From assembly GCA_029263395.1 (NCBI GenBank), contig JAJCXO010000274.1, positions 1-64,000 of the forward strand: a DNA stretch of 64,000 nucleotides, given 5' to 3'. Within the stretch, counting starts at the first letter, position 1. Each line of letters opens with the position of its first letter. Below, in pieces: positions 1 through 61,527 of the stretch. The stretch comes from Acidobacteriota bacterium (GTDB lineage: Bacteria; Acidobacteriota; Thermoanaerobaculia; Multivoradales; J023). Made by a program: the position numbers and the translations under genes. Below the pieces are notes generated by a model. It was not told the DNA's origin and did no database searches. It saw only the letters and a program-made list of their open reading frames with translations.

Positions 1-969
1 CACTACGCGCATGTGGACTGTCCGGGTCACGCTGATTATGTGAAGAACATGATCACGGGTGCGGCGCAGATGGACGGCGCGATCTTGGTGGTGTCCGCTG
101 CGGACGGTCCGATGCCTCAAACGCGTGAGCACATCCTGCTCGCCCGTCAGGTGGGTGTGCCAGCAATGGTTGTGTTCCTGAACAAGTGCGACATGGTGGA
201 CGACGAAGAGTTGCTCGAGTTGGTCGAGTTGGAGCTTCGCGAGCTGTTGTCGTCGTACGAGTTCCCCGGCGACGATATTCCGATTATTCGGGGTTCAGCG
301 CTGAAGGCGCTGGAGGCCGAGGATCCGACCGACGACTGGGCGATGAAGATCACGGAGTTGATGGCTGCAGTGGATGAGTACATTCCTGAGCCAAAGCGCG
401 ACGTGGACAAAGACTTCCTGATGCCGATCGAGGACATCTTCACGATCACGGGTCGCGGCACGGTGGTTACCGGCCGAATCGAGCGTGGGATCGTGAAGGT
501 TGGTGAAGAAATTGAGATTGTCGGCATTCGCGACACAACGAAGACGATTGTGACGGGTGTTGAGATGTTCCGGAAGTTGTTGGACCAGGGTCAGGCCGGC
601 GACAATGTCGGAGTTCTACTTCGTGGCACGAAGAAGGACGACGTTGAGCGCGGTCAGTGTCTGGCCAAGCCAGGTTCAATCACTCCTCACCGGAAGTTCA
701 ACGGCGAAGTGTACGTGTTGAACAAGGACGAGGGTGGTCGTCACACGCCGTTTTTCAATGGCTATCGTCCGCAGTTCTATTTTCGGACGACGGACGTGAC
801 GGGTTCTTCCTCTTTGCCCGAAGGGGTGGAGATGGTGATGCCCGGTGACAATGTGAGCTTGGCAGTGGAGCTGATTGCTCCTGTTGCCATGGAGAAGGGT
901 GTCCGCTTCGCGATTCGCGAAGGTGGACGCACTATCGGTGCTGGCACGGTTGCCGACATCGTCGAGTGA
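1..969 (+). CDS. tuf: Elongation factor Tu, 3' part (5' end outside window)
   Basis: This is the C-terminal 322 residues of EF-Tu, the GTPase that carries aminoacyl-tRNA to the ribosomal A site. The frame is open from base 1, and the first visible residues, [10 protein letters not shown], contain the G3 switch II motif; about 75 N-terminal residues including the P-loop lie upstream of the window. The G4 motif NKCD and the G5 SALKAL follow, then beta-barrel domains 2 and 3 ([29 protein letters not shown]). It ends in a normal position with TGA. A short GC hairpin (997-1011) without a T-run follows, then tRNA-Trp and secE. The order tuf-tRNA-Trp-secE-nusG is the common bacterial one, so this is very probably the tufB-type copy. 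Confidence 0.98.
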
Positions 970-1024
970 AGGGGAGGCAAGCTCGTTCAGAAATGCCCCG
1001 GCACCGCCGGGCTAGCGATTCCAG

Positions 1025-1100
1025 AGGGCAGTAGCTCAATTGGTAGAGCACCGGTCTCCAAAACCGGCGGTTGGGGGTTCAAGTCCCTTCTGCCCTGCCA
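1025..1100 (+). tRNA. trnW: tRNA-Trp (anticodon CCA)
   Basis: A 76-nt cloverleaf can be folded by eye. The acceptor stem is AGGGCAG/CTGCCCT, the discriminator base is G, and the 3' CCA is encoded. The anticodon arm CCGGT-CTCCAAA-ACCGG places anticodon CCA at 1058-1060, and the T arm contains GGTTCAAGTCC. It sits between tuf and secE, the usual place for tRNA-Trp in bacterial transcription/translation operons. Confidence 0.97.
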
Positions 1101-1228
1101 GATTCGGTTACAGACGTCGCTCATCACACACGCTCTTCACAACAAGCTCTCGCACAAAATTTTTCGAATCGAACGGTAGTCGGGCGAGCGGCTTGTTGAT
1201 CAGAGATCCCAACCTAGAGACCTGTTGA

Positions 1229-1438
1229 ATGTTAGAAAAGCTGAAGTACTTCTTCAAGGAATTCTTGCCCGAGGTCAAAGGGGAGTGGAAGAAGGTGACC
1301 CGGCCTAATCGTCGGGAAGTCGTTCAGACCACTGCTGTCGTCGTGGTGACCAGTTTCATCTTTGCTGTTTACCTTTGGTTGGCTGACTTCGTCATCCGCT
1401 GGGCCTACGAAGGTATGTTCAAGATTCTGGGGCTGTAA
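1229..1438 (+). CDS. secE: Preprotein translocase subunit SecE
   Basis: A 69-residue single-span SecE, the small essential subunit that clamps SecY in the SecYEG channel. The N-terminal amphipathic part (FFKEFLPEVKGEWKKVTRP) carries the conserved E(V/L)xxEW/KKVxWP-like signature, followed by one hydrophobic segment at about residues 34-52. The ATG at 1229 gives the typical short form; the upstream Shine-Dalgarno is weak. The stop codon abuts the nusG start with no gap, which indicates translational coupling. Confidence 0.95.
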   Translation: MLEKLKYFFKEFLPEVKGEWKKVTRPNRREVVQTTAVVVVTSFIFAVYLWLADFVIRWAYEGMFKILGL

Positions 1439-1963
1439 ATGCAGTGGTACATCGTACACACCTACTCGGGATTTGAAGAACGCGTCGCAGAGACGTTGCG
1501 GCAGCGGGCTGATGCTCTGGAAATGGCAGAGAGCTTCGGGGAGATACGTATCCCCACTGAAACCATCGTCGAACTAAAAGGCGGCAAGAAGCGGGAAACT
1601 CAACGAAAGTTCTTTCCTGGCTACATGCTCGTCGAGATGGATATGTCAGACGCTGCGTGGCATGTGGTCAAGAACACACCGAAAGTGACGGGTTTTGTCG
1701 GCACTGGCAAAAAGCCCACGCCGCTGACTCAAGAAGATGTTGAGCGGATTGTTGAGCAGGTGACCTCGGCCCAAGAGAAGCCCAAGCCGAAGTATCTCTT
1801 CGAGAAGGGTGAGCCAGTCAAGATCATCGATGGCCCCTTTAATAATTTCTCTGGCGTGGTTGACGAAGTGAATCTCGACCGCGACACACTCAAAGTGATG
1901 GTGACGATCTTCGGTCGCCAGACTCCCGTGGAGCTCAACTTCCTGCAAGTCGAGAAGCTTTAG
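1439..1963 (+). CDS. nusG: Transcription termination/antitermination factor NusG
   Basis: A 174-residue NusG, normal length. The N-terminal NGN domain begins [16 protein letters not shown] and contains the [12 protein letters not shown] motif. The C-terminal KOW domain (about residues 122-174) contains [18 protein letters not shown]. NusG binds the RNA polymerase clamp helices and links elongation to Rho or ribosomal protein S10. The gene starts directly after the secE stop and lies in the secE-nusG-rplKAJL-rpoBC cluster. Confidence 0.97.
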
Positions 1964-2015
1964 CTACCGGACGCAGTTAGACCGTTAAGAAAGATACCGT
2001 CAAGAGGATCAGGAG

Positions 2016-2441
2016 ATGGCGAAGAAAGTCACTGGACAGATCAAATTGCAGATTCCGGGAGGTCAGGCGACGCCTGCACCACCGGTGGGGCCAGCTTTGG
2101 GCCAGGCCGGCGTTAACATCATGGATTTCTGCAAGGCGTTCAACGCCCGGACGCAAGCGAGCCAGGGGACGATCATTCCAGTGGTCATCACTGTGTATGC
2201 GGATCGGACGTATTCGTTCATCACCAAAACGCCTCCGGCAGCCGTACTCTTGAAGAAAGCGGCTGGAGTTGCAAAAGGCTCTGGTGAGCCGAATCGCAAC
2301 AAGGTCGCAACCGTGACTCGAACGCAAGTTGAAGAGATCGCCAAGGTCAAGCAACCCGATTTGACCGCAGCAGATGTCGAGGCAGCGATGCGCTCCATCG
2401 AGGGCACTGCACGCTCGATGGGCATCGAGGTGGAAGGCTGA
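2016..2441 (+). CDS. rplK: 50S ribosomal protein L11
   Basis: A 141-residue L11 with the standard start [30 protein letters not shown] and the C-terminal rRNA-binding half ([14 protein letters not shown], then a helix-rich tail). L11 binds the GTPase-associated region of 23S rRNA, supports EF-G function and is the stringent-response sensor site for RelA. An AGGAG Shine-Dalgarno precedes the ATG. It is the first of the four ribosomal protein genes between nusG and rpoB. Confidence 0.98.
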
Positions 2442-2526
2442 GACTGGTTGAGACATCGGGTGAAACGGTGGTCCGAACCGCGCTGGTTCGCTGGCCCTTG
2501 AGCAGCCCGCTTAGGAGATAGGTAAC

Positions 2527-3228
2527 GTGGCGAAATTAGGCAAGAAACATCAGGCTGCAAAAGAGAAGGTCGAGCAACGGGACTATCAACTCGCCGAGGC
2601 GATCAGCTTTCTCAAAGACTCGACTTACACAAAGTTCGACGAGACGCTCGAGATTGCGGTGCGGCTTGGGGTCGACCCCAAGCATGCCGACCAGATGGTT
2701 CGCGGCACCGTCGTTTTACCGCACGGTACCGGTAAGAAGGTGCGTATTTTGGTCTTTGCCAGTGGCGAGAAGATCAAAGAAGCGGAAGATGCCGGAGCCG
2801 ATCACGTCGGTGGTGAGGAACTCGGCAAAAAGATCCAGGATGGTTGGATGGACTTTGATGCTGTGGTGGCGACTCCCGACATGATGCGAGAAGTTGGTCG
2901 TCTGGGGCGGGTCCTTGGCCCTCGCGGTTTAATGCCCAATCCCAAGTCCGGCACCGTGACGTTCGACGTCGCCAAGGCGATTCAGGACATCAAGGCGGGT
3001 AAAGTCGAATTCCGCGTCGACAAGGCCGGTGTCATTCACGCCCCGCTGGGCAAGCTGTCGTTCGAAGCCGATCAGCTTCAGGAAAACGTCGAAAGTCTGG
3101 CGTTGGCGGTACTCCGTGCAAAGCCTAGTGCTGCCAAAGGAAAATATGTCTTGGGGATCAGCCTGTCATCGACGATGGGTCCGGGGCTCAAGATCGACGA
3201 AACCGTCTTGCAGACGGTGGAAGCCTAG
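2527..3228 (+). CDS. rplA: 50S ribosomal protein L1
   Basis: A 233-residue L1, typical length. It starts from GTG at 2527 (AGGAGATAGGTAAC upstream), giving [15 protein letters not shown]. The signature [17 protein letters not shown] is present near residue 125. L1 forms the mobile stalk at the E site and in many bacteria represses its own operon by binding mRNA. rplJ starts 11 bp downstream. Confidence 0.98.
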
Positions 3229-3239
3229 GAGATTTTGTA

Positions 3240-3758
3240 ATGGCACAGACCCGTGAACGCAAAGAGGAGCTGATAGGCCACTATGAAAGCGCCTTGGCGC
3301 AATCGAAGCACGCCTTCTTGATGAGCTTCGAAGGGCTGACAGTGTCTCAAGCGACCGACTTGCGAGCTCGTGTTCGCGAGCAAGGTGGCTCCTATGAAGT
3401 TGTCAAGAATAGACTTGCCTTGAGAGCGATCGATGGGCAAGATCTCGGTGAACTCAAGGAGCACTTCAACGGCCCCACGGCAGTAGCCTACAGCCAAGAC
3501 CCGGTGTCTTTAGCTAAGGCTTTGACCGACTTTAGCAAAGATGTGCCAGCCATTCAGTTCAAGGGTGGCCTGGTTGATGGTCAGGCGATCGGAGCGGACG
3601 AAGTCGAATCGATCGCTAGTATGCCCGGCCGTGAAGAGCTACTCGCTAAGCTACTCTTCCTTCTGCAGTCTCCGATCACTCGCCTGGCGCGCGGCCTGGC
3701 AGCGATTCCGAGGCAGTTGGTTGTGGTACTGGACCAAATTGAAAAGAAGAAAGCATAG
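3240..3758 (+). CDS. rplJ: 50S ribosomal protein L10
   Basis: A 172-residue L10. The N-terminal rRNA-binding domain contains [18 protein letters not shown] and [10 protein letters not shown], and the C-terminal helix (about 145-172) is the expected docking site for L7/L12 dimers. L10 anchors the acidic stalk. The L10-L12 complex commonly autoregulates its mRNA; I did not identify the leader site. It lies directly after rplA and 47 bp before rplL. Confidence 0.97.
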
Positions 3759-3805
3759 GTTTCAACCGGAAAGCCGACTCAGTTAGGAAGTCGAAGGAGA
3801 TAGAC

Positions 3806-4186
3806 ATGGCAATTGCGACCGAAGATTTCATCAAGCAAATCGACGAGATGACGGTTTTGGACCTCAACAATCTCGTCAAGTCGTTGGAGGACCACTACGG
3901 TGTCTCAGCTGCTGCTGCGACGGTAGCTGTAGCGGCCGGCGGTGCTGCCGAAGGTGGTGGCGCCGAAGAAGAAAAAACTGAGTTCGACGTGATGCTCAGT
4001 TCTTTCGGCGACAAGAAGATCAACGTCATCAAAGTGGTTCGTTCCGTCACTAGCCTCGGTCTCAAAGAGGCCAAGGATCTCGTTGAGTCGGCGCCGGTTG
4101 CGGTCAAAGAAGGCGCAACCAAGGAAGAAGCAGACGAGATCAAGGCCAAGCTCGAAGAGGCCGGTGCTCAAGTCGAGCTGAAGTAG
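3806..4186 (+). CDS. rplL: 50S ribosomal protein L7/L12
   Basis: A 126-residue L7/L12. The N-terminal dimerisation helix region contains [20 protein letters not shown], an Ala/Gly-rich hinge lies at about residues 33-52, and the globular C-terminal domain contains [20 protein letters not shown] and [14 protein letters not shown]. The protein recruits translation factors to the stalk. A GAAGGAGA Shine-Dalgarno precedes the ATG. It is followed by a 311-bp gap with an attenuator-like hairpin before rpoB. Confidence 0.98.
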
Positions 4187-4273
4187 TAGTGCGGAAGTCT
4201 TTAGATGATGGTCGTCACGATGGCGGCCATCCCGAGGACGGCAATACCCGATGTTACTCACTCGGGTTCGAGG

Positions 4274-4325
4274 CGCGCCCCATTATCGTGGCTTTCAGCG
4301 ACGGGTGGGGCGCGGTTTCTCTTGT
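4274..4325 (+). terminator. Attenuator-like hairpin between rplL and rpoB
   Basis: A perfect 9-bp GC-rich stem (CGCGCCCCA at 4274-4282, TGGGGCGCG at 4306-4314) closes a 23-nt loop that can itself pair partly, and is followed by the T-rich run GTTTCTCTTGT. The position matches the partial terminator that lowers rpoBC expression relative to ribosomal proteins in other bacteria. The T-tract is imperfect, which suits attenuation more than full termination. The rest of the 311-bp rplL-rpoB gap (4187-4497) shows no gene, only the rpoB Shine-Dalgarno GGAAGGAG. Confidence 0.6.
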
Positions 4326-4497
4326 CTAGCGGGATCTCGTTGCGGCGTAGTCTGCAATTGTAGCTTTGGGGAGCCAGAGACAGACAGGTGCCAAGCATTC
4401 GGCTGCCTAACCGCAGCCCGGTAAATAAGACTTCCTCGGAGCCGCCAACGCGGAGCCAGGGTGGTGGCTTTCTTGTCGGAAGGAGCGTGGGACGCTA

Positions 4498-7400
4498 ATG
4501 AAACAAAAAGTCCAGAGGCCAGCTCTAATGCGAAAAGATTTCTCGAAGATCGGTACGTCGTTGCCGATCCCGAATCTTATCGACGTACAACGCAGGTCTT
4601 ATGAACGGTTCTTGCAGATGAACCTTCTCCCGGAAGAGCGGAGCGGGCACGGTCTGCAAGCCGTGTTTACGGGAATCTTTCCATTTTCGGACTTCCGTGA
4701 GACGTGTTCTCTCGATTTCGTCAAGTACACCATTGGTGATTGGCAATGTAAGTGCAGTGCCCTCAAGGGGCTCGAGTACCTGCGGATGACCTGCTCCAAT
4801 TGCAGCAGCAAGATCATGACTGACCATCCCCTCGAGGAGGCAGTGACTTGCGGTGATTGTGGGTTCGTCAACAAGAATCGTGTGATCCGTTGCGATATTT
4901 GTGGTGGCCCGGTCGAGCTTCAACACAAATACTCGATCGCAGAGTGTGGTGAGCGAGGGATGACCTACGCTGCACCCCTCAAGGTGACGTTCCGGCTCTT
5001 TGTTTATGACAAAGATCCAGAGACCGGCACCCGGATGATGCGAGACGCGAAGGAAGAGGAGGTCTACTTCGGCGAAATTCCGCTGATGACCGACTACGGT
5101 ACCTTCGTCATCAATGGCACCGAGCGTGTCATTGTCAGCCAACTTCACCGTAGCCCGGGTGTCTTTTTCACCAAGGACGGTAAACGGGCTCACCTCGCGA
5201 AGATCATTCCGTATCGCGGTTCCTGGGTCGAATTTGAATACGACCAGAAAGAGATCCTCTCCGTTCGCATCGATCGCAAGCGTAAGTTCCACGGCACGGT
5301 CTTCTTGCGGGCCTTGGGACTCGAGACCAACGAGGCGATTCTGCGTCAGTTCTATAAGCCGATTGGGCTCAAGCCTGCTGCGGACGGCAAGTTCACCCTG
5401 ACGTTACCGCCGGAAGTCATGCAACAGGAGCGGCTGCGGGATCGGCAGAGCCGGGGCACGCGACCGCACTACAATATTTTTGCTGGGATCACGCTCAAGA
5501 ACAGCGAGATCAAGCAGCTCGAGAATGACGAGACGATCGATCGCGAAGTCACGATGGCAGACCTCGAGCGGGCTCTGTTCATCGCCGACGTAGTGGATCT
5601 CGAGACTGGCGAGGTATTGTTCGAGGCCAATGATCTGGTTCCCGAGGATCTCGCTGAGCGACTCGAAGATCGTGCCACCACCGATCTCGAGGTGTTTTTC
5701 CCTGAGTGGGAGCTGTGCGGCAACGTCCTGACCAACACCTTGACGAAGGACCAGACGCGGAACTCCAAGGATGCTCTGATGGAGATCTACCGGCGGATGC
5801 GTCCTGGTGATCCGCCGACGCTGGAGAGTGCGCGCTCGCTGTTCTACGGCATGTTCTTCGACGCCAAGCGTTACGATTTTTCGCGCGTCGGTCGATTCAA
5901 GTTCAACATCAAGCTCGACACCGAAGTGCCAGTGGAGCAGAAAACACTGTCCGCTGACGACTTCTATCGCGTGATCGCTTACCTGTTGCGCCTGCACAAG
6001 GACATCGGGCGAGTCGACGATATCGACAACCTCGGCAATCGCAGAGTCCGTGCGGTGGGTGAGCTGTTGGAGAATCAGTTCCGCATCGGTCTGGTGCGGA
6101 TGGAGCGTGCGATCAAGGAGAAGATGTCGGTCCATCAGGACATCGACTCGGCGATGCCACACGATCTGATCAACTCCAAACCAGTGATCGCGGCGATCAA
6201 AGAGTTCTTTGGCTCTTCGCAGCTGTCACAGTTCATGGATCAGACCAATCCGCTTTCCGAGGTCACCCACAAGCGGCGCCTGTCTGCTCTAGGACCGGGT
6301 GGTTTGTCGCGTGAGAGAGCTGGTTTCGAGGTACGCGATGTGCATGCCTCTCACTATGGCCGGATCTGTCCGATTGAGACCCCTGAAGGTCCCAATATTG
6401 GACTCATCTCTTCGTTGGCGACCTATGCTCGGATCAACGACTATGGCTTCATCGAGAGTCCTTACAAGAAGTGCGTCGATGGCCGGGTTCTAGATCACTT
6501 GCGAGTTGTCCAAGTTGGTGACTCGGGCTTCAAGTTGGGCCAAATCATCACCAGCGACGACCTCGAAGAGGCCACTGCCAAGATCGCAAAGAAGGGCAGC
6601 GGACGTACGATCGAGGTTGAGCCCTTTGCCTTCTATCTCACGGCGTGGGAAGAAGAAAAATATGTCATCTCGCAGGCCAACGCGCTGGTTGATGCCAGGG
6701 GTTACTTTCAAGATGAGCGCGTCATCGCACGTGCTGGCGGTGACTTCATTACCGTCGAGCGCGAGCGCGTCGAGTACATGGACATCAACCCCAAACAGTT
6801 GGTGTCAGTGGCTGCCGCGTTGATTCCCTTTCTCGAACACGACGATGCCAACCGGGCTCTCATGGGCTCGAATATGCAACGGCAAGCAGTGCCGCTGCTG
6901 CGCAGCGACTCGCCGATCGTCGGGACCGGCCTCGAGGGTACAGTGGCCCACGATTCTGGTGCGGTGGTGGTGGCGCGTCGCGTCGGCATCGTCGATTCCG
7001 TTGACGCGGAGCGCATCATCGTCCGTGTTGAGGCGGAGGATCTCGAGACCGGTGAATCAAAAGACTTCGGCGCTGATATCTACCAGTTGACGAAGTTCCG
7101 GCGCTCGAATCAGAACACCTGCATCAATCAGAAACCGGTAGTAACCGAAGGCACGCGGGTGACGAAGGGTCACGTGTTGGCCGATGGACCTTGCACCGAC
7201 CAAGGTGAGTTGGCCCTGGGGCGCAACATCTTGGTTGCCTTCATGCCGTGGCGTGGCTACAACTTCGAGGATGCCATTCTGGTCTCGGAGAGCCTAGTCA
7301 AAGAAGATGCTTACACCTCGATCCACATCGAAGAGTTCGAGATCGAAGCACGGGATACCAAGCTGGGACCGGAAGAGATCACCCGAGACATTCCGAATGT

Positions 7401-51906: not shown

Positions 51907-54780
51907 TCATGTTGTGTCCGACACGCCGTCCGCATAGCGGACGGCGTCGTCTGTTCGGCCCCAGGCGAGGTAGAGCTCAACCAACCCTTGGCGCCAGGTT
52001 TCGACGCGGGTGCTGCCAGGGTTTTGCTGAAAGGCGGCGTAGGCCTCGAGCAACAGCGGTTCGGCCGCGTCGTATTGCCGCAGGGCGGTCAAGACGATGC
52101 CGTGGTAGCCAGCGGCGGCGGCGATGAGCCGATGCCCTTCCGGCAACACATTACGCCGCACCCCTACCGCCTCGCGCAGCAGCGGTTCCGCTTCGCTGGT
52201 AGCGCCGCGGGCATGCAGAAGATTGCCCAAGCGGATCAAGGGAAAAGCCAGAGTATGTTGATCTGGGGCCTTGGTGCGACGCATGATGGCGAGGGTTTCA
52301 CGGTAGAGCGCTATCGCCTCGTCAACCTTGTCGCGCTTTTCGAGTAACACGCCGAGATTGAACACCGACGACGCCAGATCAGGGTGCTCGCCGCCCCAGA
52401 TACGACGATAGATGGCCAACCCTTCGCGCACCATCCGTTCGGCCTCGTCCATCGCTCCGTTCCGCCACAATACGTTGCCGTGATTGTTCAGCGCCACAGC
52501 CAATCGCGGATCGTCGTTGTCGAAAGACTGGCGGGCGATCGCCAGCGCACGGCGAAAGAGTTGCTCGGCACGTTCGAAATTGTTGCGAGTCAGGGCGATA
52601 TTCGCCAAGGTGTCTAGGGTGAGGCAGAGGTCCGAGTGATTCGCTCCCAACACCTTTTCTTGCAGCGCCAGCGCTTCGCGACCCACCGCATCGGCACGCT
52701 CCAAGTCGTCTTGATGGTGCAGAATCTCCGCCAGCCGTTGGAGACTGAGCCCGATCCGGGGATGGTCTTCGGCGAGCCGGCTACGCTCGATGGCCAGGGC
52801 TTGCTCGCTGAGCGCCTGGGCGTCGTCGAGCTCACCGCGTTCGAGTTGGGTTCTGGCCAGGCCCGCCATAATCTCGGCGCGCTCGAGCGGTCGACCGCTC
52901 GCTCCATCATGATCAAGGTCTTCTTCGAGAAGCAGTGCCTCCTCGAGCAGCAGTGCCTGGCGAAATAGAGCCTCGGACTTATCGAGCTCGCCTACGGCGC
53001 GGGCTGCGACCGCCAAGCCCCAAAGGTTTTCCATCACCGCATGGTCGCCGCCGGTGGGAACCGTTTGGGCGAGTTCCAGGGCTTCTTGGAAGGCCGCCTC
53101 CGCGGCCTGTGGTTCGGCGGTGTCGAGCTGTGTCCGACCCAGGTGGTGCAGGCTTTCGGCCAGCATCATGGGCTCCGCCGCCAGCTGACGACGCGTCTCG
53201 ACGGCACGGCGCAGAAGGTCCCGAGCGACCTCATAACGACCCAAGTTGTAGTTGACGTTGCCCATCGTCACTAGCAGGGCAGCGCGGGTTTCCGGCCGCT
53301 CACCGAGTTGCTCGTCGATCCGCTGAGCGCCTTGGTCCAGGATCTCGCGTGCGGTGATCGTTTCACCGCGGGAGTTCTCTGGCGACGAGGTCTCGAAGAT
53401 GGTTGTCAGGAACTCCAGCACTTCGGCATTCTTGTCGCGCTCGGCCCGTACCTGATCACGCTCCGTGGCAACCGCTTGTGATTGAATGCGGGTGGTGATC
53501 GCGAACGCGGCGATCACGCCAACGAACACGATAGCCACCGTCACCGCCAACCAATGGCGACGCAGGAATTTGCCACTACGGTAGGCGAAGCTGTCGCTCT
53601 GAGCCATCACCGGCAAGCCAGCGAGGTGGCGGCGGAGATCGTCACTCAACCCCGCTGCCGACGCATAACGCCGCGCTGCGTCTTTGTGCATAGACTTGGC
53701 GACGATGGTGTCGAGATCACCCCGCAACCGACGACGTAGGCTGTCTGGGCGCAGGCCATCTGGACGCAGATCGTCCGCGCTCAGACCTGCGGCGTCGCTC
53801 GGTGGCGGCGGTTCGACCTCTTGCAGGAAACGTTCAACCTCAGCAACCGAACAGCGGTCTAGGCGATACGGTGGCCGGCCGCTCAACAGCCTGTAGAGCA
53901 ATACCCCCAAGGAGTAGACGTCACTAGCGGTGGTGATCGAGCCACCCCGAGCCTGTTCCGGGCTAGCGTAACTGGGGGTCATCAGCCGCAGCCACGCCAC
54001 GGTCGTCTCCAGACCGTCGGCACCGTGGTCCGGACCGAGTAGCTTGGCGATCCCGAAGTCCAACAACTTGGGGTTGCCGTCCGCGGTCACCAAGATATTG
54101 CTCGGCTTGAGGTCGCGATGGACAATCAGATTCTGGTGAGCGTATTGCACCGCGTCGCAGACTTTGCGGAACAAGTTGATCCGCTGTTCGATCGAGGCCT
54201 GGTGGTGATCGCAGTAGCTGTCGATGGGAATCCCTTCGACGTATTCCATTACCACGTAGGGTCTGGAATCTTCCGTTCCGGTCGTGAGGTCGGTGATGGT
54301 GCCGCCATCGAGCAAGCGGGCGATGTGGGTATGCTCGAGTCGAGCCAGGATCTGGCGCTCGCTGCGAAATCGTTGGCGCAAAGATTCACTATCCAACCCG
54401 CGCCGCTGGACCTTGATCGCCACCTGCTGGCGAAACTCGTCGTCGGCCCGGGACGCTCGGTACACCACACTCATGCCACCCTCGCCGATCATCTCCTGCA
54501 GTCGGTAGACGCCGATCTGTTGGCCGACGTTGGCAACATCGAGGGCATCCAGCTTCGCACGCCACGGCCCGTCCACCAGCGGGCGATCCGCTGCCAGCAA
54601 GTGCTCCGCGTCCAGCAAGCCGTCAGCAGCCCCTTCGGCGGCCAGCAGGGCGTCGACCTCCTGTCTCAGCTCGTCGTCTTCGCCACAGGTGTGATCGAGA
54701 TACCTCGTGCGCTCGGCCGGCGGCATCTCCGACGCCGTCTCGAACCGTCGTCTGACTTGTTGCCAGCGCTCAGGCCGCAT
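51907..54780 (-). CDS. TPR-containing Ser/Thr protein kinase
   Basis: A 957-residue kinase. The N-terminal region (about 1-85) has the helical WQQVRRRFE...LL pattern common in kinases paired with ECF sigma factors. The kinase domain has IGEGGMSVVYRA, AIKVQRR (Lys 123), HRDLKPSN (Asp 223) and DFGIAK. A single membrane segment (about residues 410-430, LAVTVAIVFVGVIAAFAITT) is followed by roughly ten TPRs outside the membrane. Two short duplications lie inside (EEALLL repeat from an 18-bp unit near 52931; LRPDG/LRPDS from a 15-bp unit near 53745). The start overlaps the sigma factor gene by 11 bp. The pair probably forms a kinase-controlled sigma system. Confidence 0.92.
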   Translation of the reverse strand: MRPERWQQVRRRFETASEMPPAERTRYLDHTCGEDDELRQEVDALLAAEGAADGLLDAEHLLAADRPLVDGPWRAKLDALDVANVGQQIGVYRLQEMIGEGGMSVVYRASRADDEFRQQVAIKVQRRGLDSESLRQRFRSERQILARLEHTHIARLLDGGTITDLTTGTEDSRPYVVMEYVEGIPIDSYCDHHQASIEQRINLFRKVCDAVQYAHQNLIVHRDLKPSNILVTADGNPKLLDFGIAKLLGPDHGADGLETTVAWLRLMTPSYASPEQARGGSITTASDVYSLGVLLYRLLSGRPPYRLDRCSVAEVERFLQEVEPPPPSDAAGLSADDLRPDGLRPDSLRRRLRGDLDTIVAKSMHKDAARRYASAAGLSDDLRRHLAGLPVMAQSDSFAYRSGKFLRRHWLAVTVAIVFVGVIAAFAITTRIQSQAVATERDQVRAERDKNAEVLEFLTTIFETSSPENSRGETITAREILDQGAQRIDEQLGERPETRAALLVTMGNVNYNLGRYEVARDLLRRAVETRRQLAAEPMMLAESLHHLGRTQLDTAEPQAAEAAFQEALELAQTVPTGGDHAVMENLWGLAVAARAVGELDKSEALFRQALLLEEALLLEEDLDHDGASGRPLERAEIMAGLARTQLERGELDDAQALSEQALAIERSRLAEDHPRIGLSLQRLAEILHHQDDLERADAVGREALALQEKVLGANHSDLCLTLDTLANIALTRNNFERAEQLFRRALAIARQSFDNDDPRLAVALNNHGNVLWRNGAMDEAERMVREGLAIYRRIWGGEHPDLASSVFNLGVLLEKRDKVDEAIALYRETLAIMRRTKAPDQHTLAFPLIRLGNLLHARGATSEAEPLLREAVGVRRNVLPEGHRLIAAAAGYHGIVLTALRQYDAAEPLLLEAYAAFQQNPGSTRVETWRQGLVELYLAWGRTDDAVRYADGVSDTT

Positions 54781-55393
54781 CGCCGGTGTTGCTCAGGTGG
54801 CGAAACAGCCATGCCTGTGCCGTCCGCCAGCGGCGGATCACGGTGCGCTCGGAGACACTTTTGACTTCCGCGATCTGCGTGTTGTCGAGACCTCCGAAGA
54901 ATCGGAGCTCGACCACCTCTGCCAGTTCCGGGTCCATCGTCTCCAGCTCGTTCAGAGCGTCGTCGAGAGCGATTACGGACGGATCCTCCCGCCCTCGATC
55001 GAAGCCGGGCTCGCGGGTCGCCACCGCTTCGTCGAGTGCCAACAAGATCATCCCGCCGCCGCGCTTGGTGCGGCCTCGAGTGCGCGCATGGTCGACCAGT
55101 AGGCGGCGCATGATCTGCGACGCGATGGCAAAAAAATGTGACCGGTTGCGCCAGTGCGCTCGATCCTGATCGATCAGCTTGAGATAGGCCTCGTGCACCA
55201 ATGCGGAGGTTTGGAGGGTGTGCTCTCGATGCTCCTTGCGCAGATAGCCGGCCGCGATCCGGCCGAGCTCGGCATAAACGATCGGCAGCAGCGCGTCCAA
55301 CGCCTGCCGATCCCCATCGCTCCAACACCGCAGGTGTTCCGTCACATCGTTGTTCACCCATCCTCCCCGAGAGTCGGCGATACTGGTGTGCAT
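54770..55393 (-). CDS. ECF-type RNA polymerase sigma factor
   Basis: An approximately 207-residue ECF sigma factor of the group usually paired with Ser/Thr kinases (TIGR02999-like). Region 2 reads LLPIVYAELGRIAAGYLRKE...TSALVHEAYLKLI; region 4 reads VVELRFFGGLDNTQIAEVKSVSERTVIRRWR. There is no anti-sigma gene next to it; instead the kinase gene overlaps its 3' end by 11 bp, which fits activation by phosphorylation. The start is uncertain. ATG 55393 is used here, while GTG codons a little downstream follow GGAGG and would give the typical short N terminus. Confidence 0.9.
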   Translation of the reverse strand: MHTSIADSRGGWVNNDVTEHLRCWSDGDRQALDALLPIVYAELGRIAAGYLRKEHREHTLQTSALVHEAYLKLIDQDRAHWRNRSHFFAIASQIMRRLLVDHARTRGRTKRGGGMILLALDEAVATREPGFDRGREDPSVIALDDALNELETMDPELAEVVELRFFGGLDNTQIAEVKSVSERTVIRRWRTAQAWLFRHLSNTGDAA

Positions 55394-55578
55394 CACCTGG
55401 ATCAACTGTCAACTGCGTTCCAGGCGGACTGGAGAGCCGGATCAGACCTGGACAGGCATCCAAATAGCTAAATACCTCAATGGATGCATGGTTCCTATAC
55501 GCACAATGAATAGTGGTGGTTTAGCGTGGTGTTCGAGACGCCGTTCGCTTATCTGTGCGAAGCCGATCAAACCCTCGA

Positions 55579-55611
55579 CCAACTCAATACGCCAATAGTT
55601 ATGCTAAAGTG
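55579..55611 (+). promoter_or_regulatory. Conserved 33-bp upstream block, copy 1
   Basis: These 33 bases are identical to 58293-58325, in the same place (8 bp) before the paralogous HTH-TPR gene. The block ends TTATGCTAAAGTG, where TATGCT could be a -10 box, but no sigma-70 -35 is seen at the right distance. Complete identity while flanking DNA differs suggests a selected promoter or operator, perhaps bound by the HTH-TPR proteins themselves. Confidence 0.65.
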
Positions 55612-55619
55612 AAGGCTTC

Positions 55620-57131
55620 ATGGCGTGGAAGGAGACTGAGCGGCGGTTGGTAGAGCGCTTGCAGCGGGAGCTGCGGAGCCGGTGGGGGCGTATTGCCGAA
55701 ACCGAGGCGGCGCTTGGGCTCAGTGAGGGTTATCTCAACAAGATGCTCTCCGGCCATCGGGTCTTTCGGCTCGATATATTCCTGCAAGCCATCGACTTGT
55801 TGGGGTTGGACTCTCGGACGTTTTTCGCCCAAGCTCTGGACATCTGTCCACAGAGTGACGATTTCCTGGCTCAGCTCGAGATGTTGGGTGATCGCGACAC
55901 GGCATGGCTCAAGATCGAACGTGCCACCGCCAAGCTGGTAGCGGCGGACTTTCCAGCCGTAGACCTGGAGTCCTTGGGGCTCGCATCCCTGGCGCCCTTC
56001 ACCACCGAGCTCAACGCCGAGCCCAAGCCCGCATCCTGTCGCGCTTTGGCCGACGCTGGAGAGGTTGCCGAGTTTGCCGCGCTGCCTTGTCGCGAGCAGG
56101 ACCGGCGCCTGCGTAAAACCGGTAAGTACCGCAGCTTAGCGTTCGCCCGCGCCTACCTCGAGCATCTCGACGCCTTGCGTTACGACCATGCCTCGGTTGC
56201 CGCCAAGCGTGTCACGGTGGTTTTGACCGACCTCATCCCGGCGCTTCCGGGTTCCGCGAAAGATCGGCTGGCCCTGCACTGCCTGGCGCTCGGGATTTTC
56301 GGCTCGGCTCGGCGCCACAAGGCTGAGTTCACCAGCGCTGCCCACGCGTTCCGCAAGGCGCTGGTGTTGGTGCGGCGTGCCAAGATGCGGGAAGAGACCG
56401 CAAATCTGTTGATTCGAGCCTCGTACCTGCTCAAGGATTTTGGGCAGTTCGAGCGCGCCTTGGTGTTGCTCAGCGAGGCACTGGTGACCTTCACGCGGCT
56501 CGGCTCCCGCCAAGATATGGGGCGGGTGCTGGTCGATCACGGCATGATGCATTGTTATGCGGGTGACTATGACGGAGCCATTCTCGATCTCGAACAGGCT
56601 CTGGGTTACCTTGCGGGGACCAATGAAACGTTACGCCGAACCCACCTGGCGGCCTACCAACATCTAGCGTATGCCCACGAACAGCTCGGCGATCTGGAAG
56701 CCGCTGAGCTGTGGTTGGCCCGCGGCGCCAAGGCCTGCGGGTCGAAACACAAAGTGGACCAGGCCAGACTGTTCTGGTCGCAGGGTTTGGTGGCCTTCCA
56801 GCAGGCGAGCTACCTGCGTGCCGAGGATCTGTTGCGGACCGCTCAGAGTGTTCTAGCCAGTCGCGAGAGCACCATACAGGTTGCGCTGATCACCCTCGAC
56901 CTGCTGGCTGCCCTGTTAGCGCAAGGCAAACACCAAGAAGCCACCGAGCTGGGATCGGGTATGGCTCAGTTGGTAGCCAAGTTTCGGAACAATCCCTGGG
57001 CCGAAGCCGCGCTTGTCGAGCTCCTCCGAGCGACTGTTTCCGGCAAGCTGAGCCAACAGCTCGTGAGTCAGGCCAAGTCGCGGTTGGAAGACGGCGCGTC
57101 CCGCCACGCGGCCCGCCAGCGCAGACAATAG
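55620..57131 (+). CDS. HTH-TPR cytoplasmic regulator, copy 1
   Basis: A 503-residue protein without signal or membrane segments. Residues about 15-60 form an XRE-like helix-turn-helix: RWGRIAETEAALGLSEGYLNKMLSG followed by LDIFLQAIDLLGL. The rest is helical and TPR-like. Clear TPR pairs occur at about 235-420 (FTSAAHAFRKALVLVRRAKM; FGQFERALVLLSEALVTFTRLG; AGDYDGAILDLEQALGYLAG; LGDLEAAELWLARGAK). The architecture of an N-terminal HTH plus C-terminal TPR superhelix is that of RRNPP-type receptors such as PlcR and PrgX. It is highly similar along its full length to the gene at 58334. A 28-codon peptide gene lies convergent, 177 bp downstream. Confidence 0.88.
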   Translation: MAWKETERRLVERLQRELRSRWGRIAETEAALGLSEGYLNKMLSGHRVFRLDIFLQAIDLLGLDSRTFFAQALDICPQSDDFLAQLEMLGDRDTAWLKIERATAKLVAADFPAVDLESLGLASLAPFTTELNAEPKPASCRALADAGEVAEFAALPCREQDRRLRKTGKYRSLAFARAYLEHLDALRYDHASVAAKRVTVVLTDLIPALPGSAKDRLALHCLALGIFGSARRHKAEFTSAAHAFRKALVLVRRAKMREETANLLIRASYLLKDFGQFERALVLLSEALVTFTRLGSRQDMGRVLVDHGMMHCYAGDYDGAILDLEQALGYLAGTNETLRRTHLAAYQHLAYAHEQLGDLEAAELWLARGAKACGSKHKVDQARLFWSQGLVAFQQASYLRAEDLLRTAQSVLASRESTIQVALITLDLLAALLAQGKHQEATELGSGMAQLVAKFRNNPWAEAALVELLRATVSGKLSQQLVSQAKSRLEDGASRHAARQRRQ

Positions 57132-57308
57132 TTCGCATTTGCCGTCGACTATTCGCCGCCACGGCGAGTGGGTGCTGCCGCATGAAGAACACGGGGATTC
57201 TCTCCGGGTGCACCGCTGAGCGGTTGAAGATATCCCCTCCTAAAAGAATTCATACGCTAGAAGCAACAGAGTCAAGTCTAGAGACCACGGATCTTGCTCG
57301 GCATGGGT

Positions 57309-57395
57309 TTAGCCGTGAGGCTCAATCAAGGGTCCAAGACCTAATTCACCACTCGAACACCCCGCTGCTAGTCGCTGTAAGTTGCAGTTCGCCAT
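57309..57395 (-). CDS. 28-residue peptide with one GLGPLIEPHG repeat
   Basis: A short gene with an excellent Shine-Dalgarno (AGGAGG, seven bases before the ATG). The peptide is MANCNLQRLAAGCSSGELGL followed by GPLIEPHG. It aligns without gaps to the first 28 residues of the peptide at 59854-60012, with 18 of 28 identical by my count. Its 5' untranslated region is also similar to that of the second copy. There is no signal sequence. It is convergent with HTH-TPR copy 1. It could be a pheromone precursor, a RiPP precursor or a regulator of the TPR protein. Too short for usual gene calling. Confidence 0.72.
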   Translation of the reverse strand: MANCNLQRLAAGCSSGELGLGPLIEPHG

Positions 57396-58292
57396 CCCAA
57401 CCTCCTGCGAGTAGGTCGCCAGCGGACCGCATTGTCAGTCGACGCCTACTCGGTAGGGTCCCACGGTACCCTCCACCCGCAGAAGATGGAATCACCCTAG
57501 TAATCTCTCGCTGAGAGAGCTTGCTTGAACTGCTGCGTTTCATCCAGAGATAAGCTGGCGTCAATGTCATAGGGATCTCACCTATGAGAGATCGACAAGC
57601 CAGCGAGGCAACTTGGTCGAGCTGTCCTATGGGACCCGAGCATCCCAAATCTCGACTTGTTGCAAAATCAGCTGGGAGACAAGACCCTGTTGAGGCCCAA
57701 CTGGTGATGGAGCACCAGCTGGCTGAACTGTCCGCCAACGATCGCCAACAGCTCTGAGGCCAAGGCAAAAGCGCTGATGCGTTGGGGCCGCCGCGACTCG
57801 AAAATCCTTGAGCCGCCAGCACCAACCAACAGACTGAGCAATTGAACCTCTGTTGGCACGTGTGAATCGGCCATGATCAGCCCACGAATCTCAGCGGGTG
57901 TGGTCAGCGCCTGTTGTCTGGTGGGGACGACTTGCGGTAGGTCGGCATATGCATCTCTCCTCGAGTCCGGTTTCGAGACGTAGACACGCGAGTGTGGGGT
58001 GTCGGTATGGCTCGTCTCTTCATCTGGGCGGCAGTGTTATTGGCTGTCTTGTGCCAATTGGGTGGCACTATGCGGCAAGACGGCAGGCTGGGAAAGCTCT
58101 GGTATGAAAGAAAAGCGTTTTAGGACGATAGGTCCTGTATTCGAGATAAATACACAGACTGAAGTAGAGACTCTCATCAGAGTTGGGGTAGACAGGAGAA
58201 AGCCTCTCTGCTTTTCAGATCGAACCCCTGGTTCAAAACTGCAAGAGCGCGACGGATGGGCGCAGGTGAGCGCAGATGGGCCCATGCCTCGG
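57396..58292. other. Gap between the two HTH-TPR modules
   Basis: About 900 bp. The first 150 bp are the upstream region of the 28-residue peptide gene and resemble the corresponding region at 60013-60150. The rest contains short frames on both strands (for example 57584-57757 plus, 57 codons, and 57668-57874 minus, 68 codons) without Shine-Dalgarno or recognisable motifs. They may be decayed remnants; I do not call them genes. Confidence 0.5.
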
Positions 58293-58325
58293 CCAACTCA
58301 ATACGCCAATAGTTATGCTAAAGTG
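58293..58325 (+). promoter_or_regulatory. Conserved 33-bp upstream block, copy 2
   Basis: Identical to 55579-55611. The ATG of the second HTH-TPR gene follows after 8 bp and has no Shine-Dalgarno, so if TATGCT (58314-58319) is the -10 box the transcript would have an extremely short leader. Confidence 0.65.
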
Positions 58326-58333
58326 CTGCGCAA

Positions 58334-59848
58334 ATGGTTTGGAAAGAGACGCAGCGGCAGCTGGTAGAGCGCTTGCAGCGGGAGTTGCGAAGCCGGTGGG
58401 GGCGTATTGCCGAAATCGAGGCTGCGCTTGGCCTCAGTGACGGTTACCTCAACAAGATGCTCTCCGGGCAGCGCGGGTTTCGGCTCGATATCTTCCTGCA
58501 AGCCATTGACCTGTTGGGGTTGGACTCACGCACCTTCTTCACGCAGGCCTTGGACATTTGTCCACAGAGCGATGATTTCCTGGCCCAACTCGAACTGCTG
58601 GGGGACCGTGATTCGGCATGGCTGAAGATCGAGCGTGCCACCGCCAATCTGGTGGCGGAAGACTTCCCAGCAGTGGACTTGGAGTCCTTGGATCTGGGAT
58701 CGCTGGCACCGTTCACAACCGATCTCGGAGCCGACCCAAGGCCCGCCCCCAATCGCATCATGGCGGACGCCGCTGAGGTAGAGGAGTTCGCCGAGCTGCC
58801 GTACCGCGAGCAAGACCGCCGTCTGCGTCACACGCAGAAGTACCGCAGCCTGCCTTTCGCCCGAGCCTACCTCGAACATCTCGACTCTTTGCGCTACGAT
58901 CATGCTCTGGTCGCCGCCAAGCGCGTCACCGTGGTGCTCACCGATCTCATCCCAGCTCTCCCAGGGTCCGCAAAAGAACGGCTGACCCTGCATTGCCATG
59001 CTTTGGGGATTTTTGGGTCGGCCCGGCGTCACAAAGGGGAGTTCACCAGCGCCGCGCAAGCCTTCCGCAAGGCGTTGATGTTGACGCGGCGAGCCAAGAT
59101 GCGTGAGGAGACGGCGAATCTGTTGTTGCGCGCCTCGTATTTACTCAAGGATTTTGGACAGCCCGAGCGCGCCTTGGTGTTACTCAGTGAAGCACTAGTG
59201 ACCTTCACACGGCTCGGCTCCCGCCAAGATATGGGACGGGCGTTGGTGGATCACGGCATGATGCACTGTTATGCGGGCGACTATGAAGGGGCGATTCTCG
59301 ATCTCGAGCAGGCTTTGAGTTACCTCGCAGGAACCGGTGAAACGTTGCGCAGAAATCATCTCGCGGCTTACCAAAATCTTGCCTACGCCTACGAGCAACT
59401 TGGCGATCTGGAGGCAGCCGAGCATTGTTTGGCGAATGGTGCCAAGCAGTTCGGTTCAAAGCACGAGGTGGATCGAGCCAGGCTGCAATGGTCGCAGGGC
59501 ATGGTGGCTTTCCAGCGGGCCAGTTATCCGCGCGCCGAACAGTTGCTGCGGTCTGCGCAGGGTGTTTTTGCCGGTCGCGAAGGTACTTTGCAGATCGCAG
59601 TGGTGACTCTCGATCTACTTGCTGCCTTGTTGGCCCAAGGTAAACATGAAGAAGCCGCCGAGCTGGCTTCGGGTATGGCGCAGCTCGTGGCGAGAGTACG
59701 CAACAACCGGTTGGCTGAGGCAGCTCTTGTTGAGCTCGTTCGCGCCACCGTTGCCGGCAAGTTGAGCCAGCAGATCGTCAGCGAGGTCAAAGCTCGGCTC
59801 GAAGCGGCAAACGCCTCCGCCGTCGTCAGGCGAAAGCGTCTGAACTAG
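58334..59848 (+). CDS. HTH-TPR cytoplasmic regulator, copy 2
   Basis: A 504-residue paralogue of the protein at 55620, colinear from the first residues (MVWKETQRQLVERLQRELRS) through the XRE-like HTH (AEIEAALGLSDGYLNKMLSG) and the TPR region to a basic C-terminal tail. Substitutions are spread evenly, with long identical blocks (EALVTFTRLGSRQDMG; DHGMMHCYAGDY). Its stop lies only 5 bp from the stop of the convergent 52-residue peptide gene, so the two genes are physically tied and transcripts from each probably overlap. It is probably a DNA-binding peptide or protein receptor. Homology to RRNPP regulators is by architecture only. Confidence 0.88.
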   Translation: MVWKETQRQLVERLQRELRSRWGRIAEIEAALGLSDGYLNKMLSGQRGFRLDIFLQAIDLLGLDSRTFFTQALDICPQSDDFLAQLELLGDRDSAWLKIERATANLVAEDFPAVDLESLDLGSLAPFTTDLGADPRPAPNRIMADAAEVEEFAELPYREQDRRLRHTQKYRSLPFARAYLEHLDSLRYDHALVAAKRVTVVLTDLIPALPGSAKERLTLHCHALGIFGSARRHKGEFTSAAQAFRKALMLTRRAKMREETANLLLRASYLLKDFGQPERALVLLSEALVTFTRLGSRQDMGRALVDHGMMHCYAGDYEGAILDLEQALSYLAGTGETLRRNHLAAYQNLAYAYEQLGDLEAAEHCLANGAKQFGSKHEVDRARLQWSQGMVAFQRASYPRAEQLLRSAQGVFAGREGTLQIAVVTLDLLAALLAQGKHEEAAELASGMAQLVARVRNNRLAEAALVELVRATVAGKLSQQIVSEVKARLEAANASAVVRRKRLN

Positions 59849-59853
59849 CGCCG

Positions 59854-60012
59854 TTATCCGTTAGGCTCGATCAGTGGTCCGACGCCTGGAGCGCCCTCTG
59901 GATTGATTGGGGATCCGATTCCCTTCCAACCACTGGGCTCGATCAACGGCCCGACCCCCAATTCGCCACCTGAAGCGTCCACCGCTATCCGCTGAAAGTT
60001 GCAACTCGTCAT
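59854..60012 (-). CDS. 52-residue peptide with three GxGxxIxPxG repeats
   Basis: A short gene with AGGAGG seven bases before the ATG. The peptide starts MTSCNFQRIAVDASGGEL and then contains three decapeptide-like units: GVGPLIEPSG, GIGSPINPEG and GVGPLIEPNG, joined by WK and AP. It ends directly after the last unit. The first 28 residues match the peptide at 57309-57395. No signal peptide or membrane segment is present. The repeats look like multiple copies of a mature peptide or a multi-core RiPP. Only 5 bp separate its stop from the stop of HTH-TPR copy 2. Confidence 0.75.
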   Translation of the reverse strand: MTSCNFQRIAVDASGGELGVGPLIEPSGWKGIGSPINPEGAPGVGPLIEPNG

Positions 60013-60851
60013 GCGAACCTCCTGCAAGCGGGTCGCCGTCGGACCACATCGTCAGCTGACGCCCACTCTTAGTCACCCCACGGTACTCCCTGTCAGCAGA
60101 TGATGGAACTACCGTAGTGATCTCTTTCTGAAGGAGATTAGCGGAGTATATGCGTTATTTTCAGAGATGTAATGCGACTGGCCGTATGTTGATCTTGATT
60201 AAAAGAGAGCATTCAGCCTTTGGAATACCTCAGTCGACTCTCCCTACATGTCGCGGACGTCCAAATCTCAATAGTCGCAAATCAGTCTAGGACCTGGTGG
60301 CTTGGAGGTCATCGGTCCATGGTGGGCTTCCCCGACCAGCTGATCGATAAAGGCGCCCGACAATCGACATCGTTGTACGAGAACGCTCGCGGATTGGCAA
60401 GCTGGGTTGCCTCCCCTCTGATGTAGGGGCGAGCCTTGTGTTCGCCCGGTTCGGGCTGCCTCCAACACCAAGACTCGTGACGGTTTGGACGACAAGAATA
60501 TCACCGTGGGTTTGGCACGCTGGGACGCAGTGGTTGCCTTCCAACCCCAACCGAGAACCGGCCAAATCGTTGACGATCTCGACGGTAGACACCCTAGAAT
60601 CCAATTTTTATGACCACAATGAGAACCCCTATTTCGACGGCTAGAGTCGACTGATATCCCTTGTAATCGTAAGATTCAACGGAATCCGTCCATCAAAATT
60701 AAGGTTCTAGGCTCGAGTTCTGTTCTCAGTATCTATCAGAAGACATGCGATTTATCTCTCGGATCTCGTATCTCATGAAGGGATGCTGCCACTCGAGGCC
60801 GCCAAACCATCGTCTAGGTATTTGAGACCACATATCCTCCGAAAACTCGGT
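60013..60851. other. Gene-poor stretch between the peptide module and the mobile region
   Basis: The first 140 bp are the probable leader and promoter of the 52-residue peptide gene. The remaining 700 bp hold no convincing gene on either strand. A stem-loop GGGCGA/TCGCCC (60427-60447), set in a GTAGGGGCGAGCCTTGTG context, is related in form to the dispersed palindromes at 13155 and 50803. This stretch may contain the left edge of the inserted element that follows, but no attachment site or tRNA is seen. Confidence 0.5.
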
Positions 60852-60881
60852 TTGACGGTAGAAAAAGCTGCTCTGTATCCT
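60852..60881 (+). promoter_or_regulatory. Promoter of the XRE-like gene (probably leaderless)
   Basis: TTGACG (60852-60857) and TATCCT (60876-60881) are 18 bp apart. The start codon at 60889 lies where transcription should begin, and there is no separate Shine-Dalgarno, so the mRNA is predicted to be leaderless. Confidence 0.55.
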
Positions 60882-60888
60882 CCTTTTT

Positions 60889-61449
60889 ATGAAGGACAAG
60901 ACGACCAGCGCTTCGTCCACAGCTTTGCAACGCAAGGCAGGCAGAGGCACCCGAGAGCCGATGCTGTACGACGGCCTACGAGAGGCCATCGCGAACATCC
61001 GCAAGCGCAAGGGCCTCACGCAGATCCAGTGCGCTGCGCGGACGCCGACCAGCTCGGAAGAGCATAAGAAGAGCCTGGAGAAGAAGTGGAGCCGGATCGA
61101 AGCTGGCACCCACAAGATTTTCGGGCCAGCGGAAGAGGCGCTGCTGCTCACTGGCTTGCAGTGCACCAAGCTCGAGTTGTGGGAAGAGAAGATGCGGGTG
61201 GAGCGCGACTACTACCGCAAATACGCGGCGGAGGTTGGCGAGTCCAAGCCGGGGTATGAGACGTCGGCGCTGGCGCGCCATGTCGAGCAGCTGTATCGCT
61301 TCAACGCTGAGGAGCTGCCGCCCAATGCCCAACAAGAGTTTCACGAGTTACGCAATATTGTGGTGACGCTGGTCACCCAGATCTCACATTTGATCGATCG
61401 GGTTGGAGGTTCCTACCGCGCCTACCGAGACACTGCCGCCTCCCGCTAG
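60889..61449 (+). CDS. XRE-like regulatory protein
   Basis: A 186-residue basic protein. Residues about 25-85 look like a modified XRE helix-turn-helix (LREAIANIRKRKGLTQIQCAA; KKWSRIEAGTHKIF) with an insertion of about ten residues (TPTSSEEHKK) between the recognition-helix region and the rest. A charged helical segment (WEEKMRVERDYYRKYAAEV) and a predicted C-terminal helix (ELRNIVVTLVTQISHLIDRV) follow, suggesting oligomerisation. It has its own promoter and terminator, consistent with a repressor or copy-control protein for the element downstream. Function inferred. Confidence 0.75.
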   Translation: MKDKTTSASSTALQRKAGRGTREPMLYDGLREAIANIRKRKGLTQIQCAARTPTSSEEHKKSLEKKWSRIEAGTHKIFGPAEEALLLTGLQCTKLELWEEKMRVERDYYRKYAAEVGESKPGYETSALARHVEQLYRFNAEELPPNAQQEFHELRNIVVTLVTQISHLIDRVGGSYRAYRDTAASR

Positions 61450-61486
61450 ATCCTGCCTCTCTCGCCAGGCGATGCCCAGCCTGAAG

Positions 61487-61527
61487 CCTTATTAACCGCC
61501 GATCCCGGCCGGTTAGTAAGGTTTTTT
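61487..61527 (+). terminator. Rho-independent terminator after the XRE-like gene
   Basis: A 12-bp stem CCTTATTAACCG / CGGTTAGTAAGG with one G-T type mismatch and an 11-nt loop is followed directly by six T residues. It separates the XRE-like gene from the next transcription unit. Confidence 0.93.

Follow-up and report, generated by a model that had tools for sequence, protein, structure and literature searches.

Do two regulators that combine a helix-turn-helix (HTH) domain with tetratricopeptide repeats (TPRs), each convergent with a tiny gene, form a peptide-sensing system outside Firmicutes? The question arises at positions 55579 to 60012 of a 64,000-nucleotide stretch (contig JAJCXO010000274.1, assembly GCA_029263395.1; "the window" hereafter means the whole stretch analyzed) from an Acidobacteriota bacterium, whose genome (label G000) comprises 10.7 Mb in 291 contigs. 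A sequence-only reading of the window had proposed such a system, and our counts support it, with small open reading frames (ORFs) convergent at 26 of 35 HTH-TPR genes in this genome and its relatives. Acidobacteriota probably employ tiny peptide messages, each encoded beside the regulator that probably reads it. With moderate confidence, we interpret the system as RRNPP-like peptide signaling in Acidobacteriota, with a second branch of extracytoplasmic function (ECF) sigma factors and anti-sigma-like proteins. The features of the window module are as follows.

55579-55611, plus strand: 33-bp block before TPR gene 1, identical to 58293-58325; putative promoter and/or autoregulatory site
55620-57131, plus strand: HTH-TPR regulator 1, 503 aa; TPR_12 over cut-off, HTH via the model of its paralogue
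57309-57395, minus strand: peptide gene 1, 28 aa, MANCNLQRLAAGCSSGELGLGPLIEPHG
57312-57341, minus strand: C-terminal decapeptide unit of peptide 1, GLGPLIEPHG (motif match)
57401-57406, minus strand: putative AGGAGG ribosome-binding site of peptide gene 1
57396-57522, minus strand: stretch preceding peptide gene 1, with a conserved counterpart at 60013-60139 (repeat families D2, 74%, and D3, 75%)
58293-58325, plus strand: 33-bp block before TPR gene 2, same sequence as 55579-55611
58334-59848, plus strand: HTH-TPR regulator 2 (P0002), 504 aa; AlphaFold2 model, whose TPR part resembles structures of LGN, Rap, and NprR
59854-60012, minus strand: peptide gene 2, 52 aa, three units
59929-59958, minus strand: unit 1 of peptide 2, GVGPLIEPSG
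59893-59922, minus strand: unit 2 of peptide 2, GIGSPINPEG (degenerate)
59857-59886, minus strand: unit 3 of peptide 2, GVGPLIEPNG (C-terminal)
60018-60023, minus strand: putative AGGAGG ribosome-binding site of peptide gene 2
60013-60139, minus strand: stretch preceding peptide gene 2, the conserved counterpart of 57396-57522

The particulars of the sequence-only reading held up on remeasurement. The sizes of both paralogous regulators were correct, and the two proteins are 82% identical; the 33-bp block occurs at both places named above, ending 8 nt ahead of the ATG of each TPR gene. Each regulator gene converges on a tiny gene of 28 or 52 codons, with AGGAGG 5 nt before the ATG (52 aa are counted from this ATG in peptide gene 2; an alternative TTG 15 nt upstream would give 57 aa). 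A recount again gave 18 identical residues among the first 28 of both peptides, which both end in the GhGPLIEPxG unit, and over 28 codons the two peptide genes differ at 6 first, 5 second, and 16 third codon positions.

Pairing was counted over 107 nonredundant TPR-family genes from this genome and its relatives (mostly located by profile, some at loci picked by motif), sorted with an HTH profile that was built partly from peptide-bearing genes. Neighbors were scored if a stop-terminated frame within 800 nt on each side ended in G[PGS]xx[DE]PxG plus at most 4 residues. For the 35 HTH-TPR genes, this strict motif was convergent in 26 cases, downstream on the same strand in 1, upstream antisense in 2 (both the peptide of the neighboring gene in tandem array L089), and upstream on the same strand in 0. 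Three more convergent neighbors with a relaxed motif (L082, L087 with five GPLVEPNG units, and L143) bring the total to 29, so the homologous small ORFs that the sequence-only reading expected beside HTH-TPR genes in relatives are present. The 72 TPR genes without HTH had 8 convergent and 14 upstream same-strand neighbors, with 0 downstream on the same strand and 0 upstream antisense. Dinucleotide shuffles (60 rounds) averaged 0.12 convergent and 0.20 upstream, with maxima of 2 and 1. When 13 genes of motif-chosen or first-seen loci were excluded, 15 of 24 HTH-TPR genes retained a convergent neighbor, and the genes without HTH (n = 70) retained 8 convergent and 12 upstream. These counts establish the pairing and its preferred orientation at the level of gene order; each TPR gene and its small neighbor very likely constitute a regulator-signal pair.

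Among the 8 convergent cases without HTH, 5 (L104, L165, L166, L169, and L171) are each preceded by a separate HTH gene that adjoins or overlaps the TPR gene; one of the others, in L089, is truncated where the contig ends, and the last two are L099 and L158. The split HTH/TPR loci come from two species, and each has a convergent peptide gene. In L089 (G025:C348, positions 12 to 4511), three TPR genes alternate with three convergent signal-peptide-like precursors of three units apiece, and at most junctions the neighboring genes share between a few and ~50 bases.

The peptide motif was also sought independently of the TPR genes, as DNA for GPhh[DEN]PxG followed by TRR (stop, or Trp), with the reversed pattern as a control. 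The 10.7-Mb own genome gave 9 matches (reversed pattern, 0), of which 8 adjoin a TPR gene. Peptide frames that converge on TPR genes account for seven, spread over five places (C67, C196, C208, C274, and C279); one of these seven is an inner unit of window peptide 2 and has TGG after it. Another match (C187) is upstream of a TPR gene on the same strand. All 5 matches in the sister species G001 (same genus) are convergent with HTH-TPR homologues, and one G001 precursor holds five units. A search of the class (148 genomes) yielded 21 matches, 14 of them from the window's genus, spread over 7 genomes; the control pattern gave 2. A signal-peptide-like precursor with five GPxIDPxG-like units, one ending DLNG, was seen at L038 (G020:C7, positions 1501 to 1737); no TPR homologue was found in the 5.5 kb read there (L159), and it may be an orphan message or one with a distant receptor.

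Precursors are 19 to 90 residues long where the start is clear (that of L080 is a long frame with an ambiguous start). Duplicated units, first noted in the window, recur: 13 of 47 precursors hold two or more. The absence of a signal peptide, also claimed for the window, extends to the window's genus (0 of 18 convergent precursors) and fails elsewhere: of 16 convergent precursors from other genera, 14 have a signal-peptide-like start, as called by a home-made heuristic, not SignalP. L091 was scored "no signal" since the scanned stretch cut its start; a fuller read shows a hydrophobic start, making it a fifteenth. Upstream same-strand precursors other than the own-genome L164 pass the heuristic in 8 of 12 cases. 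Over 59 distinct units, each conserved Gly and Pro position uses all four codons, and three peptide pairs pooled differ by 17, 11, and 33 bases at codon positions 1, 2, and 3 (P = 6.7e-4); the codon-position differences point, at the sequence level, to constraint acting on the peptide as protein. Peptides vary in step with their receptors (Mantel test on distances, r = 0.379, n = 34, 0 of 5,000 permutations as high), which is expected from coevolution and equally from shared descent. Precursors had no informative match in NCBIfam (ten tested; two matches at E = 0.089 and 0.15 taken as chance) or Pfam (three tested; one at E = 0.024 taken as chance), and window precursor P0004 had no Pfam match.

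Does the regulator look like a peptide receptor? Pfam assigned only TPR-type repeats, and no HTH, to P0001 and P0002, and an HTH_31 match in one relative was weak (E = 0.02). The AlphaFold2 model of the 504-residue regulator (pLDDT, 86.3) has about eight helix pairs, as counted from the helix list. The N-terminal part, modeled alone, matches XRE HTH domains (Z = 10.7 to 3f6w, 8.3 to Rgg2, and 8.0 to PrgX), which bears out the XRE-like HTH of the sequence-only reading; the predicted N terminus has an XRE-type HTH fold. The TPR part (residues ~170 to 480) matches RapI (Z = 21.9), phage Rap with pheromone (20.8), NprR (20.2), and NprR-NprX (18.6), and the model thus presents a TPR superhelix resembling peptide-binding TPR proteins (Rap and NprR). 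Polar residues conserved in at least 75% of sequences fall mostly in the first helices of the pairs (9, compared with 1 in second helices and 3 in loops; pairing assigned by hand), which in TPRs generally are taken to face the groove. A profile search found NprR (5dbk, E = 3.6e-8; 4gpk, 9.8e-8) and RapF (1.1e-6), with many unrelated TPR proteins scoring better. The NsdA family (NCBIfam NF053720) gave weak matches to 15 of 20 aligned TPR proteins (best E = 2.6e-14); P0002 reached only 23.2 bits against a cut-off of 75. Across the phylum, an HTH-only profile matched 6 of 297 genomes (the own genome, one within the family, one within the order, and three from other parts of the phylum at 5.7e-7 to 8.8e-5), a weak bound given an even sample minus carriers already known and 16 candidates scored per genome.

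What might the regulator bind? A 26-bp core of the 33-bp block also stands ahead of both orthologous TPR genes in the sister species, and no other site was found in either genus genome at up to 3 mismatches. A regulon-wide operator was considered and is unsupported, as each of the two genomes has two sites, each before one member of the TPR pair or of its orthologues. This confinement suggests a local promoter or autoregulatory site.

The TPR proteins without HTH point to a second branch which, like the split HTH/TPR versions, was absent from the sequence-only reading. In alignment A5 (non-HTH TPR proteins, mostly from peptide-bearing genes), an HxxxCxxC-like stretch near the N terminus was seen by eye in 12 of 17 rows; such a stretch resembles the motif of zinc anti-sigma factors. 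A class-wide search with profile A5 matched 59 of 145 genomes at 1e-15 and provided a further set of 39 non-HTH-type genes; one further-set gene and 3 earlier non-HTH genes (leaving 69 evaluable) were excluded because too little sequence was available upstream. At 12 of the 39, a same-strand ORF whose product ends in [DEN]PxG plus at most 8 residues lies upstream, 9 of these ORFs having a signal-peptide-like start, and the same test gave 0 downstream, 0 convergent, and 1 upstream antisense; shuffles averaged 1.57 (maximum, 5), or 0.03 (maximum, 1) with the signal required. The strict motif was upstream of 3 of 39. With a looser end, the signal heuristic, and 1,500 nt, an upstream precursor was found at 19 of 39 genes and 0 in the three other orientations. 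That looser test gave 24 upstream, 5 convergent, 2 upstream antisense, and 0 downstream for the earlier 69 genes, and 16 convergent and 0 in other orientations for the 35 HTH-TPR genes.

An ECF sigma gene, sought with two query sequences only, stands directly upstream of 15 of the 39 further-set genes, 5 of which also have a precursor upstream (L196, L197, L203, L206, and L209). The zinc motif H-x(2-5)-CxxC, matched by regular expression, occurs in 26 of the 39 and in 14 of the 15 ECF-linked ones. For the earlier 69 genes, the figures are 30 (zinc motif) and 7 (ECF); among the 35 HTH-TPR proteins, none has the zinc motif and none an ECF gene beside it. The order pro-peptide, ECF sigma factor, TPR protein was seen at those five loci and at L128 and L132; most TPR proteins of the seven have the zinc anti-sigma-like motif, and the peptides end like AGAGLDPNG (three copies in L197).

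How would such a pair work? The small gene would encode a precursor, and the active peptide would be the decapeptide at its C terminus (consensus xxGPxh[DE]PxG), which some precursors repeat. This peptide would be released, via Sec in many relatives and by another route in the window's genus, and taken up by an oligopeptide importer (OppA-type binding proteins, SBP_bac_5, have six matches over cut-off in the own genome). It would then bind within the concave groove of the TPR domain, its acidic core and C terminus perhaps contacting conserved Arg, Asp, and Trp residues there, and this binding would alter the HTH-DNA contact, in the window probably at the 33-bp block (autoregulation). In the second branch, the peptide would act on the TPR protein with the zinc anti-sigma-like N terminus, freeing the ECF sigma factor. 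We lean, a shade less firmly than for the signaling itself, toward the full export-and-reimport mechanism.

Several findings weigh against this account. No strict-motif neighbor was found at 9 of the 35 HTH-TPR genes (three of these 9 have the relaxed-motif neighbors, and one had just 43 nt of downstream sequence), and 20 of the 39 further-set genes have no precursor. The distribution is patchy: among 59 relatives, the strict pattern matched in 5 genomes including the own genome, and the TPR family is present in 21 of 30 relatives. Some pattern matches outside the genus look like chance, e.g., L039 in G011, the terminal part of a 168-codon frame, which was rejected as such. The ninth own-genome match (C135) has no homologous HTH or TPR gene in the 10.1 kb read and is taken as orphan or chance. 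The codon comparison of L003 and L078 gave dN near dS (0.31 and 0.38), with no clear synonymous excess. In the structural comparison, the N-terminal model (residues 1 to 112) is only fair (pLDDT, 70.5), an HTH Z near 10 is not strong alone for a small helical domain, and the top match of the TPR part is eukaryotic LGN (Z = 25.5); TPR superhelices are generic. Translation, secretion, uptake, and binding of the peptides are predicted, and the window precursors have no signal peptide that would account for export in the window's genus. Around C135, an ORF resembling a generic TPR protein was seen ~3.8 kb away, and the small frame itself (L163, G000:C135, positions 5304 to 5393) ends GPMVEPEG and follows, by ~300 bases, a 1052-codon ORF resembling a TonB-dependent receptor.

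Those signal-less precursors invite another explanation, in which the small protein never leaves the cytoplasm and binds the TPR protein there, acting as inhibitor, timer, or cofactor. Tight genetic linkage would suit such a cell-internal regulator as well as the 0 of 18 count does; we regard it as unlikely, given the signal-peptide-like starts (by the home-made heuristic) of most convergent precursors outside the window's genus (14 of 16) and of the precursors upstream of 19 of 39 further-set genes, and given repeated units, which fit pro-peptide processing better than a stable partner protein. A leader followed by repeated cores is also the layout of ribosomally synthesized and posttranslationally modified peptides (RiPPs) or bacteriocins, for which the TPR protein would be a pathway regulator or maturation scaffold. 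TPR proteins do match RiPP-associated HaaT (11 of 20, best E = 1.2e-6) and FxSxx-COOH (1 of 20) weakly, P0002 scoring 17.5 bits against a HaaT cut-off of 1125. No recurrent modifying enzyme was seen by eye among the ORFs of the inspected loci (not all neighbors were profile searched), the recurrent partners found were ECF or HTH, and the tandem array L089 (4.9 kb) is built of TPR-peptide pairs, all of which makes this reading improbable.

The position of the motif between convergent genes in the HTH class would also fit an artifact, with a terminator or some other conserved element of DNA or RNA happening to read as peptide. We find this scarcely credible: multiunit repeats stay in frame, and the peptides of the other class sit upstream on the same strand. 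A conserved DNA element or terminator was rejected on the free variation of third codon positions over the 59 distinct units and by the lack of any Rfam family match in 54500-61500. RRNPP-like peptide signaling is the reading we carry forward.

Two neighbors of the module were noted in the window. An ORF of 186 aa at 60889-61449, 0.9 kb past peptide gene 2, reads like an XRE-type regulator (KRKGLTQIQCA) and has no Pfam match over cut-off. On the minus strand at 51907-55405, an ECF sigma factor followed by a many-TPR protein kinase adjoins the module; this pair is probably a separate system.

If RRNPP-like signaling is correct, peptide-TPR communication would not be a Gram-positive specialty, as which it has mainly been described so far. 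Acidobacteriota are diderm, and the question would arise how short peptides cross two membranes in both directions. The loci provide a concrete list of peptides and receptors for testing. We judge it evenly balanced whether the phylum evolved or acquired a large network of its own, in which a genome may have as many as dozens of paralogous TPR receptors, a good number of them paired with a [DE]PxG decapeptide, feeding an XRE regulator or, via a TPR anti-sigma, an ECF sigma factor. Such a network would be one of peptide quorum sensing outside Bacillota, with a route from peptide to sigma factor through a cytosolic TPR anti-sigma receptor. The portions of the RRNPP literature consulted assign this sort of sensing to Bacillota and the mobile elements they carry; term look-ups did not find "Acidobacter" in the main texts of PMC10075063, PMC9765709, and PMC12700828, and open-licence PubMed Central had, among the matches listed, no paper on such peptide signaling in Acidobacteriota.

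How does the system compare with known ones? It shares with RRNPP(A) of Bacillota (NprR-NprX, PlcR-PapR, Rap-Phr, and AimR-AimP) a receptor of HTH plus TPR (Rap lacks HTH), a pro-peptide gene adjoining the receptor gene with the active peptide at the C terminus, and a TPR superhelix of 5 to 9 repeats (about eight helix pairs in our model). Sec export for most RRNPP(A) peptides, and repeated units in some AimR, NprR, Rap, and PlcR pro-peptides, are described in passages of PMC9765709. It differs in its phylum, in a longer unit (about 8 to 10 residues) whose [DE]PxG end is common to paralogues, in its convergent or upstream same-strand gene order, and in its split HTH/TPR and ECF/anti-sigma versions; we propose that it works like RRNPP and do not claim descent from that family. 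Passages of PMC10518010 describe leaderless communication peptides of streptococci with RopB-type receptors, bare 8 to 9 residues secreted without a signal. These resemble the peptides of the window's genus in having no secretion signal and a gene next to that of a cytosolic receptor, whereas our unit is the C terminus of a longer precursor. For the second branch, the nearest likeness is to ECF270 and ECF271, listed in a review with soluble zinc anti-sigma (ZAS) partners among factors whose mechanism is given as unknown; its table has an Acidobacteria example for ECF270 (PMC8999054, passages). In both, an ECF gene stands beside that of a soluble protein with a zinc anti-sigma-like motif; here, by contrast, the partner has a TPR domain and 5 of 15 ECF-linked further-set genes have a signal-peptide-like precursor upstream, making this branch a candidate input for ECF factors of unknown signal.

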